This document shows positions 15,273 through 63,143 of a stretch of DNA of 64,000 nucleotides, piece by piece (the first letter of the stretch is position 1; every line of letters starts with the position of its first letter). Source of the DNA: Candidatus Hydrogenedentota bacterium (GTDB lineage: Bacteria; UBA8481; J006); assembly GCA_003697085.1 (NCBI GenBank), contig RFFU01000040.1, positions 48,271 through 112,270 of the forward strand. Reading direction: 5' to 3'. The position numbers and the translations under genes were made by a program. The notes beneath the pieces are model-generated. The model saw only the letters and a list, made by a program, of their open reading frames with translations, did no database searches and was not told where the DNA came from.

Positions 15273-15345
15273 GGAAAAGGCAAAAGGAAGAAGGCAAAAG
15301 GAAGAAAGCAAAAGGCAAAAGGGAGAAGGGAAAGGAGGCGTTCCG
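15273..15345. repeat. Purine-rich GGCAAAAGG-type low-complexity tract inside the gsp operon
   Basis: The plus strand is almost pure purine, built from degenerate copies of GGCAAAAGG and GGAAGAA. It fills the gspK-gspL gap, although the other gsp junctions that can be read (J-K, I-J, L-M) overlap by 4 nt. Related tracts occur at 24395-24550 and 51196-51290, also just upstream of minus-strand membrane-protein genes. Confidence 0.7.
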
Positions 15346-24394: not shown

Positions 24395-24550
24395 AAAGCA
24401 ATAGGAAAAAAGTCACACAAGAGGGAAAAGGAAAAAGGCAAAAGGAAAAGGGCAAAAGGAAAAAGGGAGAAGGGAGGAGGGAGGAGGGAGAAGGGAAAAG
24501 AGAGAAGAGAGAAGAGAGAAGAGAGAAAAGGAAAGGAGGAAGGAGGGGGC
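24395..24550. repeat. Purine-rich low-complexity tract (GGCAAAAGG / GAGAGAA type)
   Basis: About 155 nt of nearly pure purine on the plus strand, grading from GGCAAAAGG-like units to GGGAGGA and then GAGAAGA repeats. It separates the divergent tadE-like and HD-GYP genes (24367-24687), a region that otherwise holds no gene. It could form triplex (H-DNA) structures and may contain the promoters of both genes, though none is clear. Confidence 0.75.
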
Positions 24551-51191: not shown

Positions 51192-51195
51192 GCTT

Positions 51196-51290
51196 TTCCC
51201 CTCTCCCTTTTTCCTTTTTTTCCTTTCTCGTTTTGCCTTTTCCCTTTTGCCGTTGTCCCTTTGCCCTTTGCCTTTCCATGCTTTCGTTTC
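51196..51290. repeat. Pyrimidine-rich (CTTTTGCCTTTTCCC)-type tract
   Basis: Degenerate repeats of TTTTGCC, CCCTTTTGCC and CTTTGCC lie between the HAD gene and the start of the GT-C-like gene. The minus strand is purine-rich and matches the GGCAAAAGG words of the tracts at 15273 and 24395, in inverted orientation. Confidence 0.75.
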
Positions 51291-57370: not shown

Positions 57371-57712
57371 ATGATGCGGTCTGTTCAAAAGAAGGTTCGT
57401 TCTCTTCTCGAAGAACGGGGAATGTCCGTTGCCGACCTCGCGGCCCGAACGGGGCGATCCTATTCGGATGTGCGGCGGAGCCTGACCGAACCGCATTGCT
57501 GGCGACTCGATCGCCTCTTCGATTACGCCGAAGCCCTGGAAACGGCACCTGCTTTTCTTTTGCCCGCTGGCGGTGAAGCGGTGAAGGGGTTATCCGGTAT
57601 GCCTGATCGAATGACGGGGTTTCCGATCGAGGAGCGGCTCCGATCCGCCGCGCTTTCTGGACGACTGGTGGCGGCTTTGAACCGGATCGGCCGGCGGAAC
57701 CGGCGGCGATGA
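57371..57712 (+). CDS. HTH-domain protein, likely antitoxin/regulator of the downstream nucleotidyltransferase
   Basis: The protein has about 113 residues. Starts at ATG 57371 and 57374 are adjacent; upstream extension is low-complexity. Residues about 10-45 (LLEERGMSVADLAARTGRSYSDVRRSL) form a Cro/XRE-like helix-turn-helix. The C-terminal half is helical with an LxxLPxGGE-type linker. Its stop overlaps the nucleotidyltransferase ATG (ATGA), so the two are translated together. The arrangement of a small HTH protein before an NTase-fold protein is the usual order of MNT/AbiE-type toxin-antitoxin modules. Antitoxin function is an inference. Confidence 0.7.
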   Translation: MMRSVQKKVRSLLEERGMSVADLAARTGRSYSDVRRSLTEPHCWRLDRLFDYAEALETAPAFLLPAGGEAVKGLSGMPDRMTGFPIEERLRSAALSGRLVAALNRIGRRNRRR

Positions 57713-58233
57713 CAGGCGAGGGGCTCTTTTCTTTCGAGTTTCTGCGCGCGATGGCTGAAAAAGAGGTGGAGGCTCTTTTGATCGGGCGGCAGGCGATGGC
57801 GGTTTACGGCGCTCCCACGGCGACGAACGATCTGGATGTACTGGTTGTTTCCAAAAAGGCGGAGAGGATTCTTGGAGAACTCGCCGAGAGTTTCGGATTG
57901 GTCAAGGTACTCGAGGAAGAAAGAGGGATGGTGTGGAAGAGGAGGCAGGTTCGTTATACCGACGATCCCGAGATACCTTCAGCCGCCGGTGTTTGGCCTC
58001 GGGTCGTGGACATTCTGACCATTCCGCGTATGCGCGGCTTCGCCTTTGAGACGGCCTGGCGGCGTCGCGTGCCGATCAAATTGGAAACCGGCGGCGCATT
58101 CTTCGTGCCCCATATCGATGATCTGATCGTGCTCAAGCGCCGTCGCAACAGCGACCGGGACAAGGAGGATATAGCGTGGTTGAAACGCCACCGCCGTGAG
58201 ATCGTGGAAGAATTCCCCGGCGTCGGCGGGTAG
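57709..58233 (+). CDS. Nucleotidyltransferase-fold protein (DUF6036/AbiEii-like), probable toxin partner
   Basis: The 174-residue protein has an N-terminal core with GRQAMAVYGAPTATNDLDVLV, where the TxDLDV strand carries the two Asp of the nucleotidyltransferase metal site. The C-terminal helical part contains VPHIDDLIVLKRRRNSDRDK, typical of the DUF6036/AbiEii family (DLIxLK...DxxDI). These proteins act as toxins in HTH-paired TA systems by modifying tRNA or similar targets, although many are uncharacterised. It overlaps the HTH gene. Its last 12 codons (REIVEEFPGVGG) lie inside the 64-bp repeat that flanks the following cassette, which is thus inserted exactly at its 3' end. Confidence 0.78.
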   Translation: MTGEGLFSFEFLRAMAEKEVEALLIGRQAMAVYGAPTATNDLDVLVVSKKAERILGELAESFGLVKVLEEERGMVWKRRQVRYTDDPEIPSAAGVWPRVVDILTIPRMRGFAFETAWRRRVPIKLETGGAFFVPHIDDLIVLKRRRNSDRDKEDIAWLKRHRREIVEEFPGVGG

Positions 58234-58320
58234 CGATTCCTGTTGCGGGAATCGGTCGCCTTTTTTTCCGAGTTTCCACATTTAGTGCGTTCGGATAGCC
58301 GGAGGAAAAGGATACGAGGA

Positions 58321-58387
58321 GAGGGCAAGGGCAGGGGCAGGGGCAAGGGCATGATCAATCAAGGGCAGGGGCAGGGGCAAGGGCAAG
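58321..58387 (+). repeat. Left hexanucleotide array (GGGCAA/GGGCAG)
   Basis: Two blocks of tandem GGGCAA and GGGCAG units are separated by TGATCAATCA. The array reads in the sense of the downstream gene. It is the approximate reverse complement of the array at 58796-58841. Confidence 0.85.
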
Positions 58388-58433
58388 GAAAAGAACGGTT
58401 TGTCGGCTTATAGAACGTTGGTATCATCCCGAT

Positions 58434-58790
58434 ATGGTGAAATCCTCGGATGAATTCGACCATGAACGCCTTCAGGTATATCAAAAGGCGGCACTGTTTG
58501 CCGGAAATGCGGATCGTATAGCCAAGAAACTCAGGAGAAGACGGCGAGATCTTGCCGATCAGCTGGAAAGGGCTTCATCGTCCATATTGTTGAACATTGC
58601 GGAAGGTGCTGGCGAATATTCAAGGCCGGAAAAGAAGCGATTTTTCCGGATGGCAAAACGTTCTGGAGCCGAGTGTGCCGGGATTCTCGATCTTTCTCAT
58701 CGAATCGGCTGTATTACTCCCAAAGTCTACTCAGTGAATCGAGAATTGTTGTTGGAAATTATTCGAATGCTCGTTGCACTATGCAGATAG
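58434..58790 (+). CDS. Four-helix-bundle protein (23S rRNA intervening-sequence protein family)
   Basis: The 118-residue protein belongs by pattern to the IVS/four-helix-bundle family: FDHERLQVYQKAALFA at the N-terminus, then ADQLERASSSILLNIAEGAG, the family's most conserved stretch, and RFFRMAKRSGAECAGILDLS. The family includes proteins encoded in 23S rRNA intervening sequences and, more distantly, Avd accessory proteins of diversity-generating retroelements. Here it is not in an rRNA gene but within a repeat-bounded cassette between inverted GGGCAA arrays. ATG 58434 lacks a strong ribosome-binding site. Function is unknown; nucleic-acid binding is reported for relatives. Confidence 0.85.
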   Translation: MVKSSDEFDHERLQVYQKAALFAGNADRIAKKLRRRRRDLADQLERASSSILLNIAEGAGEYSRPEKKRFFRMAKRSGAECAGILDLSHRIGCITPKVYSVNRELLLEIIRMLVALCR

Positions 58791-58795
58791 CACGG

Positions 58796-58841
58796 CCCTT
58801 GCCCATGTCCTTGCCCTTGCCCTTGCCCTTGCCCTTGCCCT
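58796..58841 (-). repeat. Right hexanucleotide array (TTGCCC), inverse of the left array
   Basis: About seven TTGCCC-type units with one variant (CCCATGTCC) immediately follow the four-helix-bundle stop codon. With the left array they could pair into a long stem enclosing the gene. Confidence 0.85.
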
Positions 58842-59008
58842 TAATGGGTTAGTGCTGTCTCGAAAAACACAGAATCTCGCTAATCACTCATTAGCGCCTC
58901 ACAACGAGACTTTAGAAAATCAAAGTTTTCCACAGTGGAAACTCGGGAGATCGTGGAAGAATTCCCCGGCGTCGGCGGGTAGCGATTCCTGTTGCGGGAA
59001 TCGGTCGC

Positions 59009-62000
59009 CTATTTTTCTTCCGCGAGTCGCTTGACCGCCGCCAGGTCGATCTTGCCCGTGCCCAGAAGCGGGATTTCATCGACACGGCGGAAGGCGGTCG
59101 GTTTCGGGATCCAGAGGTTCGGCAACTTGTACTCCTCCCGCAGAGCATTCACGACCTCCCGGGGATCCAGTTCCAGTGTATGGAGAACGACCAGTTCCTC
59201 CCGTCCGGAGGCGTCGCGGCGTCCGGTCACGACCGCCGGCGGACCGCTTCTGCTCGGTTCGTCATCCGCCTTCCGTGCGCGGGCGATGTGATCGAGTACG
59301 GCTTCCTCGACTCGTCCGTGCGGCACCATCTCGCCGCCGATCTTGGAGAAGCGTTCGAGCCGCCCGACGATGCGGAGAAATCCGTCTTTTTCCAGGACGG
59401 CGACGTCACCGGTCCGGTACCAACCGTCCCGGAGCACCTCGGCCGTTCGGTCGGGATCCCGCAGGTATCCCTTCATCACGTTTGCGCCTTTCACCCAGAG
59501 GATCCCCTCTTCGCCGGTCGAGCATTCTTCTTGCGTCTCCGGGTTCCGGATTCGGACGGCGACCCCGGGCAAGGGATGGCCGATGCTTCCGGGCTTTCTC
59601 TTGGCGGGCACGTTGATGGCGATGACCGGAGCGCACTCTGTCGCGCCGTAGCCCTCGAGAAGCGGACAAGAGAATCTTTCCTCCCACGCCTTCGCCACTT
59701 CCGGGGGCAAGGTCTCGGCTCCCGCGAAAGCCAACCGCAGGCTCTGGAAGTTCTCGGGGGGAATCCGGCGCAGGTAGGCTCGCGCGAAGGTGGGGGTGGT
59801 GAGGAGAATCGTGGCGTTGGCGTCCCGGCAGGCCTTCCCGATAGTGTGCGTGTCGAGCGGATTGGCGTGGTAAATCGCGGAGAACGAACCTAGAAGAGGA
59901 AACCAGAGGGTGCCGGTGTAGCCGAAGGAATGGAAGAAGGGAAGGATGCCGAGGATGCAGTCGGATTTCCGCGTATCGAAGACGTCGGAAAGACCCAAGA
60001 CGTTGGCGAGGATGTTGGCGTGGGTGAGGACGACGCCCTTGGGGGTTCCAGTCGAGCCGGAGGAGAAGATGACCGTGGCGGCATCGTCCGGTTGCCGCCG
60101 GCTTCCGGGCAGGAGACGTTCGATGACGGGAAGGGGAAGGAAGGAGAAGAGAAGATACCAAAGGACGATCTTGAGGCGTGGCAGGGAAGAGGTCAGGTCC
60201 TCGAGATAAAGAACGCGCGCGGGGGGAAGCGGCGCCGCGATCTTCTGGAGAAACTTTCGGGAAGTGAAGATTCGGGAGATGCGCGCACTCCGGACGGCGA
60301 AACCCAACGCTTCCGCGGAAGCCGTGAAGTTGAGGTTGACGGAAATCTTGCCGCAAAGCGTGCAAGCGATGTTCACCATCGCGGCGGCGGTGCCCGCGGG
60401 GAGGAGAATCCCGATGGATTCGGGATCTTCGGGATCCTCGGCTCGACGGTTTTCTTTCGGTTCCGTTTTCGTCGATTCCGAACCGTTCTGGCGGCCGCAA
60501 AGGTAGGTTTGCGCGAAGACGTGAGAGACGGCGACGAGCCGACCGAAGGGGAGGGACGAGCCGAGCGTATCCTGGACGGCGGTCCGGAACCAGGAAAGGC
60601 GTGCGGCGCGCAGGAGGGCGCGGGTGAGATTCCGGTGACGGGCGGCGCGGAGCCGCATCGCCTCGGCGCCCAATTCGAGAACACTTTGGCGGACGGTATC
60701 GGCCTTCGTTCGGCTTGGAAGGGGTTGTCCGAGCGAGACGGTGACCGGATAGGGGATCCTCCGCGGAATCTTCCAGAGGAGACGTCCCTCGGAGAAGGAG
60801 AAGATGGAGCCCCAGACGCCGTCGAGGTGGACCGGGATTACGGGAACGCTCGCGGTGTCCGCCACTGTTTCGAATCCCCTCCGAAACGTCGTCGGCAGTC
60901 CGGTCCGCGTGATCTGTCCTTCGGCGAAGATGCAGACGAGTTCTCCTTCCATTGCGGCGTTCGCCGCCTCCCGTAGAGCGGCTCGTACGCTCTCGCGCCT
61001 TCCCGGGGCGATGGGAATGGCGCGCATCAGGCGGCAGAACGGGTGGAAGAGGCGGTGGTTGTAGTAGTCTTCGAGCATCAGGAAGCGGATCGGGCGTTCG
61101 ATGGCGCTTCCGATAAGGAGGGCGTCGATGAAGGAGACGTGGTTCGAGACGAGGACGGCTCCGCCCGTTGCGGGAATATGTTCCCGTCCGAGAATGCGCA
61201 AGCGGTAGATGGTCGTTGTGAGGAGCCACCCGGAGAAACGAACGACGAACTCGGCCAGCCAGAGGCAGAGGAGGATGCCGATGACCAGCGTGGCGAATCC
61301 GAGGAGAAGGAAGAGAGTTCGGGGAGAGATGCCTGCTTTCTCGACGGCGGCGAATATCGCGGATGCGGCGAGGACGGCGGAGAAGACGAGGAAGTTGGAG
61401 GCTGCCAGAACACCGCCTCGATCCGCGCGGGGTGCTCGTTCCTGGACAGCGGCCTGGAGCGGTACGATGAAGAGACCCGAGGCGAAACCGAGAAAGAGGT
61501 AGGTCACCACTCCGCTGGAAAGGCCGTGCGCCGCCGTGGCGATCAGGACGAGCCCGACGGCGGTTCCGAGTTCGCCCAGCGGCACCAGCCCGATCTCGAC
61601 CATATTCCGCGACCACCGGCCGGCGACGAGCGAGCCGACGCCGATACCGATGGAGAGCGTCGTCATAAGGATGCTCGTCTGCGTTTCGAAATCGGCTCCC
61701 GTCGCGGTGTTGAAGAGGTCGGAGCGCGCGAAGAGGAGGGTTGCGAAATAGACCATCTGCCCGAGGAACCAGAAGAAGGCCAGTCCGATCATCGGTGCTC
61801 CAAGGGACCTTTTCGGGAGGGATTCGGAAAGGCGGCGGAAGATGTCGCCGAACGGGTTCCGCCACTCGATCTTCTTTTCCGGCGCGACGGCCGGCGCCGG
61901 CGGGACGGCGAGGGAGACGAGCCAGGCGAGCGCGGCGAGGACGGCGCAAGCGAGCGAGGCGGACGTCGGGTCGCCGTGGAGGTAATGGAGCGCCGCTCCG

Positions 62001-62527
62001 CCGAACGCGGTGCCCAGGACGATCGCCCCGAACGTGGCGGCTTCCAGGACGCCGTTGGCCCGGGAAAGATGCTCGACGGGGAGGGTCTCCGGGAGGATGC
62101 CGTACTTGGCCGGCGAATAGAAGGCGGATTGCGCTCCCGCCCAGAACAACGCGGCCAACACGAGATGGAAGGCGCCGAAGTGGAACGCGACCGCCGCCAG
62201 AAGCATTCCGAAGACCCCGTACAACTGCATCACGATGAAGACGGTTCGTTTCGAGTACTTGTCGGCAAGCGCTCCGGCCCAGGAGGAGAAGAGAAGGAAC
62301 GGGATGATGAAGAGCGCTCCGATAACCGACAGGATCACTCCGCCCTCGCTGGTGCTCGAAGGAATGGAACGGAGGAGAACGAGGCTGACGATCAGCTTGA
62401 AGGCGTTGTCGTTAAAGGCGTTGAGGAAGACGGCGACGTAGTAGGCGACGAATCCCTTCCGCCTGAGGGGGGAAGCCTCGGACGGTGTCGTAGTGGTGCG
62501 GTCGGGGGAGGGAACGGGCTTGACCAT
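59009..62527 (-). CDS. Fused MFS (LplT-like) transporter, 1-acylglycerophosphate acyltransferase and acyl-ACP/CoA ligase (Aas-like)
   Basis: The protein has about 1,172 residues, starting at MVKPVPSPDR (ATG 62527), 1 nt after the CPBP stop. The N-terminal third is an MFS transporter (FNDNAFKLIVSLVLL, LADKYSKRTVF) of the LplT lysophospholipid-flippase type. Next is a PlsC acyltransferase with the NHxxxD motif (SNHVSFIDALLIG). The C-terminus is an adenylate-forming ligase with SSGSTGTPKGVVLTH and GYGATECAP. Together they import lysophospholipid, activate a fatty acid and re-acylate the lipid at the inner membrane. The three-way fusion exists elsewhere in bacteria. Stop 59009 touches the direct repeat of the adjacent cassette. 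TetR operators upstream suggest lipid-responsive control. Confidence 0.92.
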   Translation of the reverse strand: MVKPVPSPDRTTTTPSEASPLRRKGFVAYYVAVFLNAFNDNAFKLIVSLVLLRSIPSSTSEGGVILSVIGALFIIPFLLFSSWAGALADKYSKRTVFIVMQLYGVFGMLLAAVAFHFGAFHLVLAALFWAGAQSAFYSPAKYGILPETLPVEHLSRANGVLEAATFGAIVLGTAFGGAALHYLHGDPTSASLACAVLAALAWLVSLAVPPAPAVAPEKKIEWRNPFGDIFRRLSESLPKRSLGAPMIGLAFFWFLGQMVYFATLLFARSDLFNTATGADFETQTSILMTTLSIGIGVGSLVAGRWSRNMVEIGLVPLGELGTAVGLVLIATAAHGLSSGVVTYLFLGFASGLFIVPLQAAVQERAPRADRGGVLAASNFLVFSAVLAASAIFAAVEKAGISPRTLFLLLGFATLVIGILLCLWLAEFVVRFSGWLLTTTIYRLRILGREHIPATGGAVLVSNHVSFIDALLIGSAIERPIRFLMLEDYYNHRLFHPFCRLMRAIPIAPGRRESVRAALREAANAAMEGELVCIFAEGQITRTGLPTTFRRGFETVADTASVPVIPVHLDGVWGSIFSFSEGRLLWKIPRRIPYPVTVSLGQPLPSRTKADTVRQSVLELGAEAMRLRAARHRNLTRALLRAARLSWFRTAVQDTLGSSLPFGRLVAVSHVFAQTYLCGRQNGSESTKTEPKENRRAEDPEDPESIGILLPAGTAAAMVNIACTLCGKISVNLNFTASAEALGFAVRSARISRIFTSRKFLQKIAAPLPPARVLYLEDLTSSLPRLKIVLWYLLFSFLPLPVIERLLPGSRRQPDDAATVIFSSGSTGTPKGVVLTHANILANVLGLSDVFDTRKSDCILGILPFFHSFGYTGTLWFPLLGSFSAIYHANPLDTHTIGKACRDANATILLTTPTFARAYLRRIPPENFQSLRLAFAGAETLPPEVAKAWEERFSCPLLEGYGATECAPVIAINVPAKRKPGSIGHPLPGVAVRIRNPETQEECSTGEEGILWVKGANVMKGYLRDPDRTAEVLRDGWYRTGDVAVLEKDGFLRIVGRLERFSKIGGEMVPHGRVEEAVLDHIARARKADDEPSRSGPPAVVTGRRDASGREELVVLHTLELDPREVVNALREEYKLPNLWIPKPTAFRRVDEIPLLGTGKIDLAAVKRLAEEK

Positions 62528-62528
62528 T

Positions 62529-63143
62529 TCAGAAGTACCCCAGGAAGAAGAGGCCGCCGCCCAGCAGGACGAGGTCCGCGGCGACATGGCTCAAGAAAGG
62601 TTCCTGGATTCGTCCGCCGCGGGAGAGGAATGACCAGACGAGCCCGGCGGGATAGACGGCCGCTCCGGTGCAAAGCGCGGCGGAAACGGAACCGAGCCCC
62701 GCCAGGACGATGACGTGCTGGAGCGCGAAGCAGAACGCGGAGGCCGGAGGACCGATCTGTTCGTCGAGGAATCCCCGGTAGAACCACTCTTCCAGAAGCG
62801 CGTTGGCCGTGGCGATGAGAAGGGCGGCGGCGGCGGCCGTGGCGGGGGAATATCCGTAGCGGACATCGAAAGCGTGCCGGAGTTCACCGGGCGCGATGAA
62901 GAGAGGAAGAAAGAGCCAGACGAGGCCGAATGCGACGCCCCCCAACACAAGTCCACTGAGGATTGCCGGAAGTGTTTCCGGCCGTTTCGGCGGGCGGGGC
63001 GGACGGAGTTTCTTCCCGTAGAGAAACGGAAGGAGCAGAAGCGCGATCTTGTAGAGGCCGAAACCGAGCCAACCGTGTCCGAGGAACGGGCCGGCGGCGG
63101 CCAAGAGAAGCGGCACGGCCGCGATGAAATATCCGCCGTTCAC
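62529..63143 (-). CDS. CPBP (CAAX-type) intramembrane metalloprotease
   Basis: The 204-residue protein has six to seven TM segments. The family catalytic motif EExxxR appears in LLEEWFYRGFL, with further metal-binding His in ALQHVIVL and SHVAADLVLL, as in CPBP proteins (Rce1-like). These act as intramembrane proteases or chaperones in envelope stress and, in some bacteria, bacteriocin immunity. It is the first gene of the minus-strand pair with the lipid-recycling fusion and lies 80 nt from tetR. A TetR-type palindrome sits at 63179-63198, just upstream of the ATG, so it is probably repressed by the neighbour. Confidence 0.9.
   Translation of the reverse strand: MNGGYFIAAVPLLLAAAGPFLGHGWLGFGLYKIALLLLPFLYGKKLRPPRPPKRPETLPAILSGLVLGGVAFGLVWLFLPLFIAPGELRHAFDVRYGYSPATAAAAALLIATANALLEEWFYRGFLDEQIGPPASAFCFALQHVIVLAGLGSVSAALCTGAAVYPAGLVWSFLSRGGRIQEPFLSHVAADLVLLGGGLFFLGYF

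Follow-up and report, generated by a model that had tools for sequence, protein, structure and literature searches.

The DNA analyzed here, which we refer to as the window, is a stretch of 64,000 nucleotides of contig RFFU01000040.1 from the Candidatus Hydrogenedentota bacterium assembly GCA_003697085.1, and our subject is a small repeat-bounded element that it carries between two convergent protein genes. The element contains one gene, which encodes a protein of the S23 family, the four-helix-bundle proteins known mainly from the intervening sequences (IVSs) of bacterial ribosomal RNA (rRNA) genes. The gene is bracketed by inverted hexanucleotide arrays, a feature absent from the preliminary description of the locus, and these lie in turn within an inverted repeat of 12 bp and a direct repeat of 64 bp. 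From the left, the parts of the element and its flanking repeats are:

58198-58261 (58198-58268 with one mismatch), no strand: left copy of the 64-bp direct repeat, a probable target duplication (sequence comparison)
58268-58279, + strand: left terminal inverted repeat, CCGAGTTTCCAC (sequence comparison)
58268-58321, + strand: left end sequence of the element, with related copies at C124 and C50
58322-58388, + strand: upstream tandem array, (AGGGCA)n (Tandem Repeats Finder, period 6)
58400-58427, + strand: promoter-like site directly upstream of the S23 start (promoter scan; 1 found against 0.7 expected by chance)
58434-58790, + strand: gene for an S23/four-helix-bundle protein of 118 aa, intact (PF05635 23S_rRNA_IVP, E 1.4e-22; TIGR02436, E 2.5e-20)
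58795-58842, + strand: downstream inverted tandem array, (GCCCTT)n (Tandem Repeats Finder, period 6)
58935-58946, - strand: right terminal inverted repeat, GTGGAAACTCGG (sequence comparison)
58947-59010, no strand: right copy of the 64-bp direct repeat (sequence comparison)

Both repeats reported in the preliminary description were re-measured and hold exactly: the direct repeat is perfect at 64 of 64 positions and exact to the base, reaching 74 nt once two mismatches are allowed, and the 12-bp inverted repeat inside it is likewise perfect. By our own estimate, the chance of finding a perfect 12-bp inverted repeat within ~10 bp of both inner ends of the direct repeat is ~100 x 4^-12, or ~6e-6. 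The two array arms are 93% complementary over 30 nt, and when the insert is folded as RNA the predicted structure closes on the outer 12-bp inverted repeat and pairs both arrays with each other (z score -8.0). Heptamer arrays also occur elsewhere in the window with no S23 gene (AAAAGGC at 15273-15333, AGGGAGA at 24422-24538 and CTTTTCC at 51193-51269), and no comparable inverted partner was found within 1.5 kb of the window's other main short-unit arrays.

That the cassette carries a single four-helix-bundle gene of the 23S IVS family, as was first described, is borne out by the agreement of the PF05635 and TIGR02436 matches. The protein retains each of the nine invariant residues of a 12-member family alignment and by itself matches 2gsc in the PDB (E 2.5e-6), while a profile of the twelve family members matches the solved structures 2gsc (E 2.8e-36) and 2rld; a single-sequence structure prediction (predicted local distance difference test score of 61) was too weak for a structure search. 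The list of open reading frames and a domain search gave no integrase or transposase in the insert, in which the S23 gene is the sole gene, and an Rfam search of the window returned tRNAs only, with no match at the insert.

Anatomy and mobility of S23 loci across bacteria

The survey of PF05635 covered 389 genomes sampled across many families, and the domain was present in 139 of them. For 62 S23 loci from diverse bacteria, the 400 bp upstream of the gene were aligned with the reverse-complemented 400 bp on its downstream side, which gave an inverted-flank score for each locus; 480 matched windows drawn from the same contigs served as controls. The S23 loci had a median score of 18.5 and the controls one of 9.5 (Mann-Whitney U test, p 4e-26), and at 45 of the 62 loci it exceeded the 99th percentile of the controls. 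Tandem arrays with periods of 5-9 were present in 94 of 120 S23 flanks compared with 33 of 360 control windows, lying on both sides of the gene at 39 of 60 loci and on at least one side at 55. The most frequent period was 7 (92 arrays), followed by 8 (20), 9 (7) and 6 (2). The array sequence varies from locus to locus, and the two sides of a given locus are often reverse complements of each other. On our reading of the flanking sequence, one copy (L057) appears to sit in a 16S rRNA gene and an Azospirillum copy (L182) in a 23S rRNA gene, with the same arms. S23 units inside and outside rRNA genes have a common anatomy, and the initial view that the architecture of the window element is foreign to four-helix-bundle proteins does not stand, inverted arms being their usual arrangement in rRNA genes and outside them. 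No S23 genes were found in phage records.

Several individual loci are recorded here in their own right. Two S23 units of one complete genome (L107 and L108, at G247:C1:1520320 and 1736797) are 95% identical over 532 bp, and both have a premature stop and adjoin CRISPR-like repeat arrays. A further unit of that genome (L109, G247:C1:1947854) lies, as we read it, between arsD-like and arsA-like genes, and the ArsA-like protein seems to have the translated right array as its N-terminus (MSKLFTTSPLHPF..). Another genome (G009; L050, L072 and other loci) has at least 12 S23-like matches, many of them divergent pairs a few hundred bases apart and in one case forming long imperfect palindromes, and these are possibly a miniature derivative made from pieces of the S23 gene.

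The insertional nature of S23 units is seen in six cyanobacterial plasmid comparisons, in which relatives without the unit reveal its insertion between genes. In Trichormus plasmid C, an S23 unit of 420 bp lies between two genes and is absent from the Fremyella and Aulosira plasmids, whose flanks are 97-98% identical; here GTAAT is duplicated. In the Nostoc plasmids S23 units occupy two different gaps of one conserved operon, the first gap being filled in pNsp_a, C052_D and N6 and empty in pNsp_c, with TTCTA duplicated, while the unit in pNsp_c has counterpart sites without it in C052_A and C052_B. Further units are inserted between cmr2 and cmr3 in Picosynechococcus 7003 (the 7002 relative lacks it), between cas6 and cas4 in Pseudanabaena, between nrdB and nrdA in Nostoc edaphicum and after an integrase gene in Calothrix NIES-22, although in these four comparisons, with flanks 84-95% identical, the junctions cannot be fixed to the base. 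The two units of this set that lie inside CRISPR-cas operons, between cmr2 and cmr3 and between cas6 and cas4 (L181 and L185), are absent from there in relatives, so a unit found in such an operon does not necessarily take part in CRISPR defence. One further pair of genomes (G138 and G374) was rejected as a filled and an empty site, since conservation extends as far as the array on the left side but is absent from the right flank, giving no clean empty site.

The preliminary description had proposed that the cassette could be mobile, and had held that a fixed arrangement with no empty site anywhere would speak against this. At the level of the S23 class the proposal stands, with clean empty sites for other S23 units in closely related plasmids; that the window copy itself has moved is suggested by its anatomy.

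The probable insertion site and the origin of the 64-bp repeat

The element lies at the point where the transcripts of the following two host genes would converge:

57709-58233, + strand: host nucleotidyltransferase gene (DUF6036-like; PF19502 at its cut-off, E 4.9e-5), of which the last 36 nt are duplicated
58234-58268, + strand: terminator-like hairpin and T tract, with the insertion point at its end (read from the sequence and a fold)
59009-62587, - strand: convergent host gene, a fusion of MFS, acyltransferase and AMP-binding domains (Aas-like; PF07690, PF01553, PF00501)

As had been described, the cassette lies at the 3' end of the nucleotidyltransferase gene, and the 64-bp repeat covers the last 36 nt of that gene, including its stop codon, and the hairpin that follows. 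The hairpin has its stem at 58234-58242/58246-58254 and is followed by a tract of seven T residues at 58261-58267; its fold (58234-58254) has a z score of -0.9, and it was not listed by a terminator scan because six bases separate the stem from the T tract. The insert proper starts 35 nt past the stop codon of the nucleotidyltransferase gene, and the stop codon of the convergent gene overlaps the right 64-bp repeat by 2 bp. With the insert and one copy of the repeat removed, ~26 bp would separate the ends of the two host genes, with a single hairpin between them. The right 64-bp repeat abuts the inverted-repeat end of the insert, and so does the left one when the T tract is taken as belonging to the target.

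Related copies in the source genome were inspected as stretches around sequence matches. The left 54 bp of the element recur at G000:C124:21607 and on C50, each time running into a GGGCAA array; no S23 gene was detected beside either copy, and no other copy of the right end was found. There are many more GGGCAA arrays across the genome. Its second S23 gene is split across the end of contig C99 and the start of C46 (L012 and L013), which overlap by 95 bp, and heptamer-like arrays of differing sequence lie on its two sides. A scan of genome contigs for the S23 protein gave three partial, distant relatives.

We consider it likely that the window element is an S23 mobile unit of the rRNA-IVS type that was inserted between the convergent genes at their shared terminator and duplicated 64-71 bp of its target. 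Several observations weigh against this reading, or against its extension to all S23 loci. The source genome yielded no further complete copy of the element, and the single genome of the same order that was searched gave no nucleotidyltransferase match and hence no empty version of the site. The window arrays have a period of 6 where the S23 class usually has 7, the inverted-flank score of 17 of the 62 S23 loci did not rise above the control threshold, and not all S23 loci are recent, some having kept their place between related genomes. Moreover, the best-resolved target duplications of S23 units are ~5 bp, the resolved ones ranging from 0 to 6 bp, and no long unique direct repeat was found among ~90 other S23 loci scanned, where the direct matches inspected fall in arrays or array-like sequence. 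The 64-bp duplication is thus exceptional; it is not a trait of the S23 class and does not define the element.

These last two observations are what would be expected had a tandem duplication of the 64-bp stretch come first, such as replication slippage at the terminator could produce, with the S23 unit inserted later exactly at the junction. This history requires two events, the second precisely at the boundary of the first, and insertion anywhere else would not have yielded two full copies flush with the ends of the insert. Because the repeats are flush with those ends, as a target duplication of 64-71 bp predicts, we prefer target duplication and regard a prior tandem duplication as unlikely. 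Somewhat less probable again is a nested arrangement in which an S23 unit at 58322-58842 entered an older small element that had CCGAGTTTCCAC ends and had made the 64-bp duplication. It would account for the recurrence of the left 54 bp at C124 and C50 with no S23 gene detected, but at both places, too, a GGGCAA array follows directly on the left end, which makes it look as if end and array belong to one unit, and the right end was found nowhere else.

Long direct repeats at the 3' end of a gene also resemble attachment (att) sites, as is generally known, and the two copies could be read as attL and attR of a site-specific integration, with the recombinase acting in trans. We think this very improbable, as the insert has no integrase, its ends carry an inverted repeat, which is no part of att integration, and other S23 units enter many unrelated sites with short duplications. 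As to an assembly artefact that created the second repeat copy, the source is a draft genome of 145 contigs, several of which break at arrays of this type. However, the ends of one pair of contigs overlap by exactly 95 bases, which suggests an assembly k-mer longer than 64 bp, so that a 64-bp repeat, being shorter than this overlap, should have been resolvable; each copy also has its own separate flanks, and we give an artefact almost no weight.

Proposed mechanism and relation to known systems

We now put forward a hypothetical mechanism for the insertion. The mobile unit would be formed by the S23 gene within its inverted tandem-repeat arms and the outer 12-bp inverted repeat. Our best guess is that some host or resident enzyme copies the unit or moves it, with insertion at a staggered break, in this case right after the T tract, where staggered cleavage and fill-in would have duplicated 64-71 bp of the target. 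As RNA, the whole insert would form one long hairpin with the S23 reading frame in its loop, and this hairpin may let transcripts tolerate the insert as rRNAs tolerate their IVSs, probably through cutting by RNase III, the enzyme that removes rRNA IVSs with no ligation of the pieces. The S23 protein could act as a nucleic-acid-binding helper, a role suggested by the resemblance of PF05635 to Avd, the accessory protein of diversity-generating retroelements (PMC10053308).

A repair-like or RNA-primed insertion fits the variable target duplications better than a fixed-stagger transposase does, since duplications of 5, 5-6, ~3 and 64 bp, provided that all of them are true, speak against a constant stagger of the enzyme. 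Reverse transcriptase was considered as the mobilizing enzyme and set aside: the source genome gave no RVT_1 match at E<=1e-10, and among the 389 genomes RVT_1 co-occurs weakly with S23 (51 of 139 genomes with S23 and 59 of 250 without; 37% vs 24%). Y1_Tnp was found in 92 of the 139 genomes with S23 and 82 of the 250 without (66% vs 33%; odds ratio 4.0, p 2e-10, uncorrected for relatedness and genome size), an association that holds in genomes with and without RVT_1. The source genome has one weak Y1_Tnp match, and single-strand Y1 transposition is not known to leave duplications; we treat the Y1 transposase as a lead only. Three known kinds of element were also rejected for the window insert. 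For a group II (IIC) intron at the terminator, Rfam showed no intron match up to E<=5, and such an intron, like a diversity-generating retroelement, would go with the RVT_1 domain that was not found in the genome at that threshold (template and variable repeats were not searched for). An insertion sequence (IS) with a DDE transposase, or a miniature inverted-repeat transposable element (MITE), does not agree with an insert whose only gene is S23 and whose 64-bp repeat is not a short, fixed duplication.

MITEs and IS elements do share terminal inverted repeats and flanking direct repeats with the window unit, which differs from them in having an S23 gene and no transposase, and to our knowledge the duplications made by IS families are far shorter than 64 bp. 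Closer to it are the S23-encoding IVSs of 16S and 23S rRNA genes (Coxiella, Leptospira), which likewise have one S23 gene, complementary stem-forming arms, a size of ~0.4-0.7 kb and no transposase; in Coxiella, tandem heptamers (GACAGAT) also directly precede the S23 gene (PMC4990558). The window unit differs from these in lying between convergent protein genes, outside any 16S or 23S rRNA gene, and in having hexamer arrays on either side of the gene, a 12-bp inverted repeat outside them and a flanking duplication of 64 bp. The S23 arrays also resemble the heptanucleotide repeats of bacteria, which are short, mostly intergenic tandem arrays with units of ~7 bp, among them the cyanobacterial short tandemly repeated repetitive (STRR) sequences, the TAACTGA repeats of Beggiatoaceae (PMC4679880) and the heptamers of Geobacter (PMC2700814). 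The Beggiatoaceae repeats have spread without an evident mechanism, and a repeat-binding protein was suggested as a possible mobile element (PMC4679880). The reports on these repeats give no link to S23, whereas the window arrays form an inverted pair with an S23 gene between them. In the open literature (most subscription papers and all bioRxiv preprints were outside the scope of the search) we found no paper that makes a general connection between inverted heptanucleotide arrays and S23 genes, and the link may already have been noted elsewhere. S23 IVSs and heptanucleotide repeats are both already known, and we claim no new category for the window element.

Beyond the window, we tentatively suggest, as an idea to which we give a little less than an even chance and which we hold less firmly than the reading of the window element, that S23 genes flanked by inverted heptanucleotide arrays make up a single mobile family present throughout the bacteria, of which the IVSs of rRNA genes are only the copies that lie in rRNA genes and which is one source of the unexplained heptanucleotide repeats of many bacterial genomes; the window copy would then show that insertion of such a unit can duplicate up to 64-71 bp of its target. 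We know of no accepted origin for bacterial heptanucleotide repeats and of no account of how rRNA IVSs move, and S23 proteins have no known function (PMC4990558). The class-wide link between S23 genes and arrays joins these three puzzles, S23 function, IVS movement and heptanucleotide origin, and opens them to testing. Now that empty sites are known, it can be asked which S23 units move, what they need in order to do so, and whether the arrays follow.

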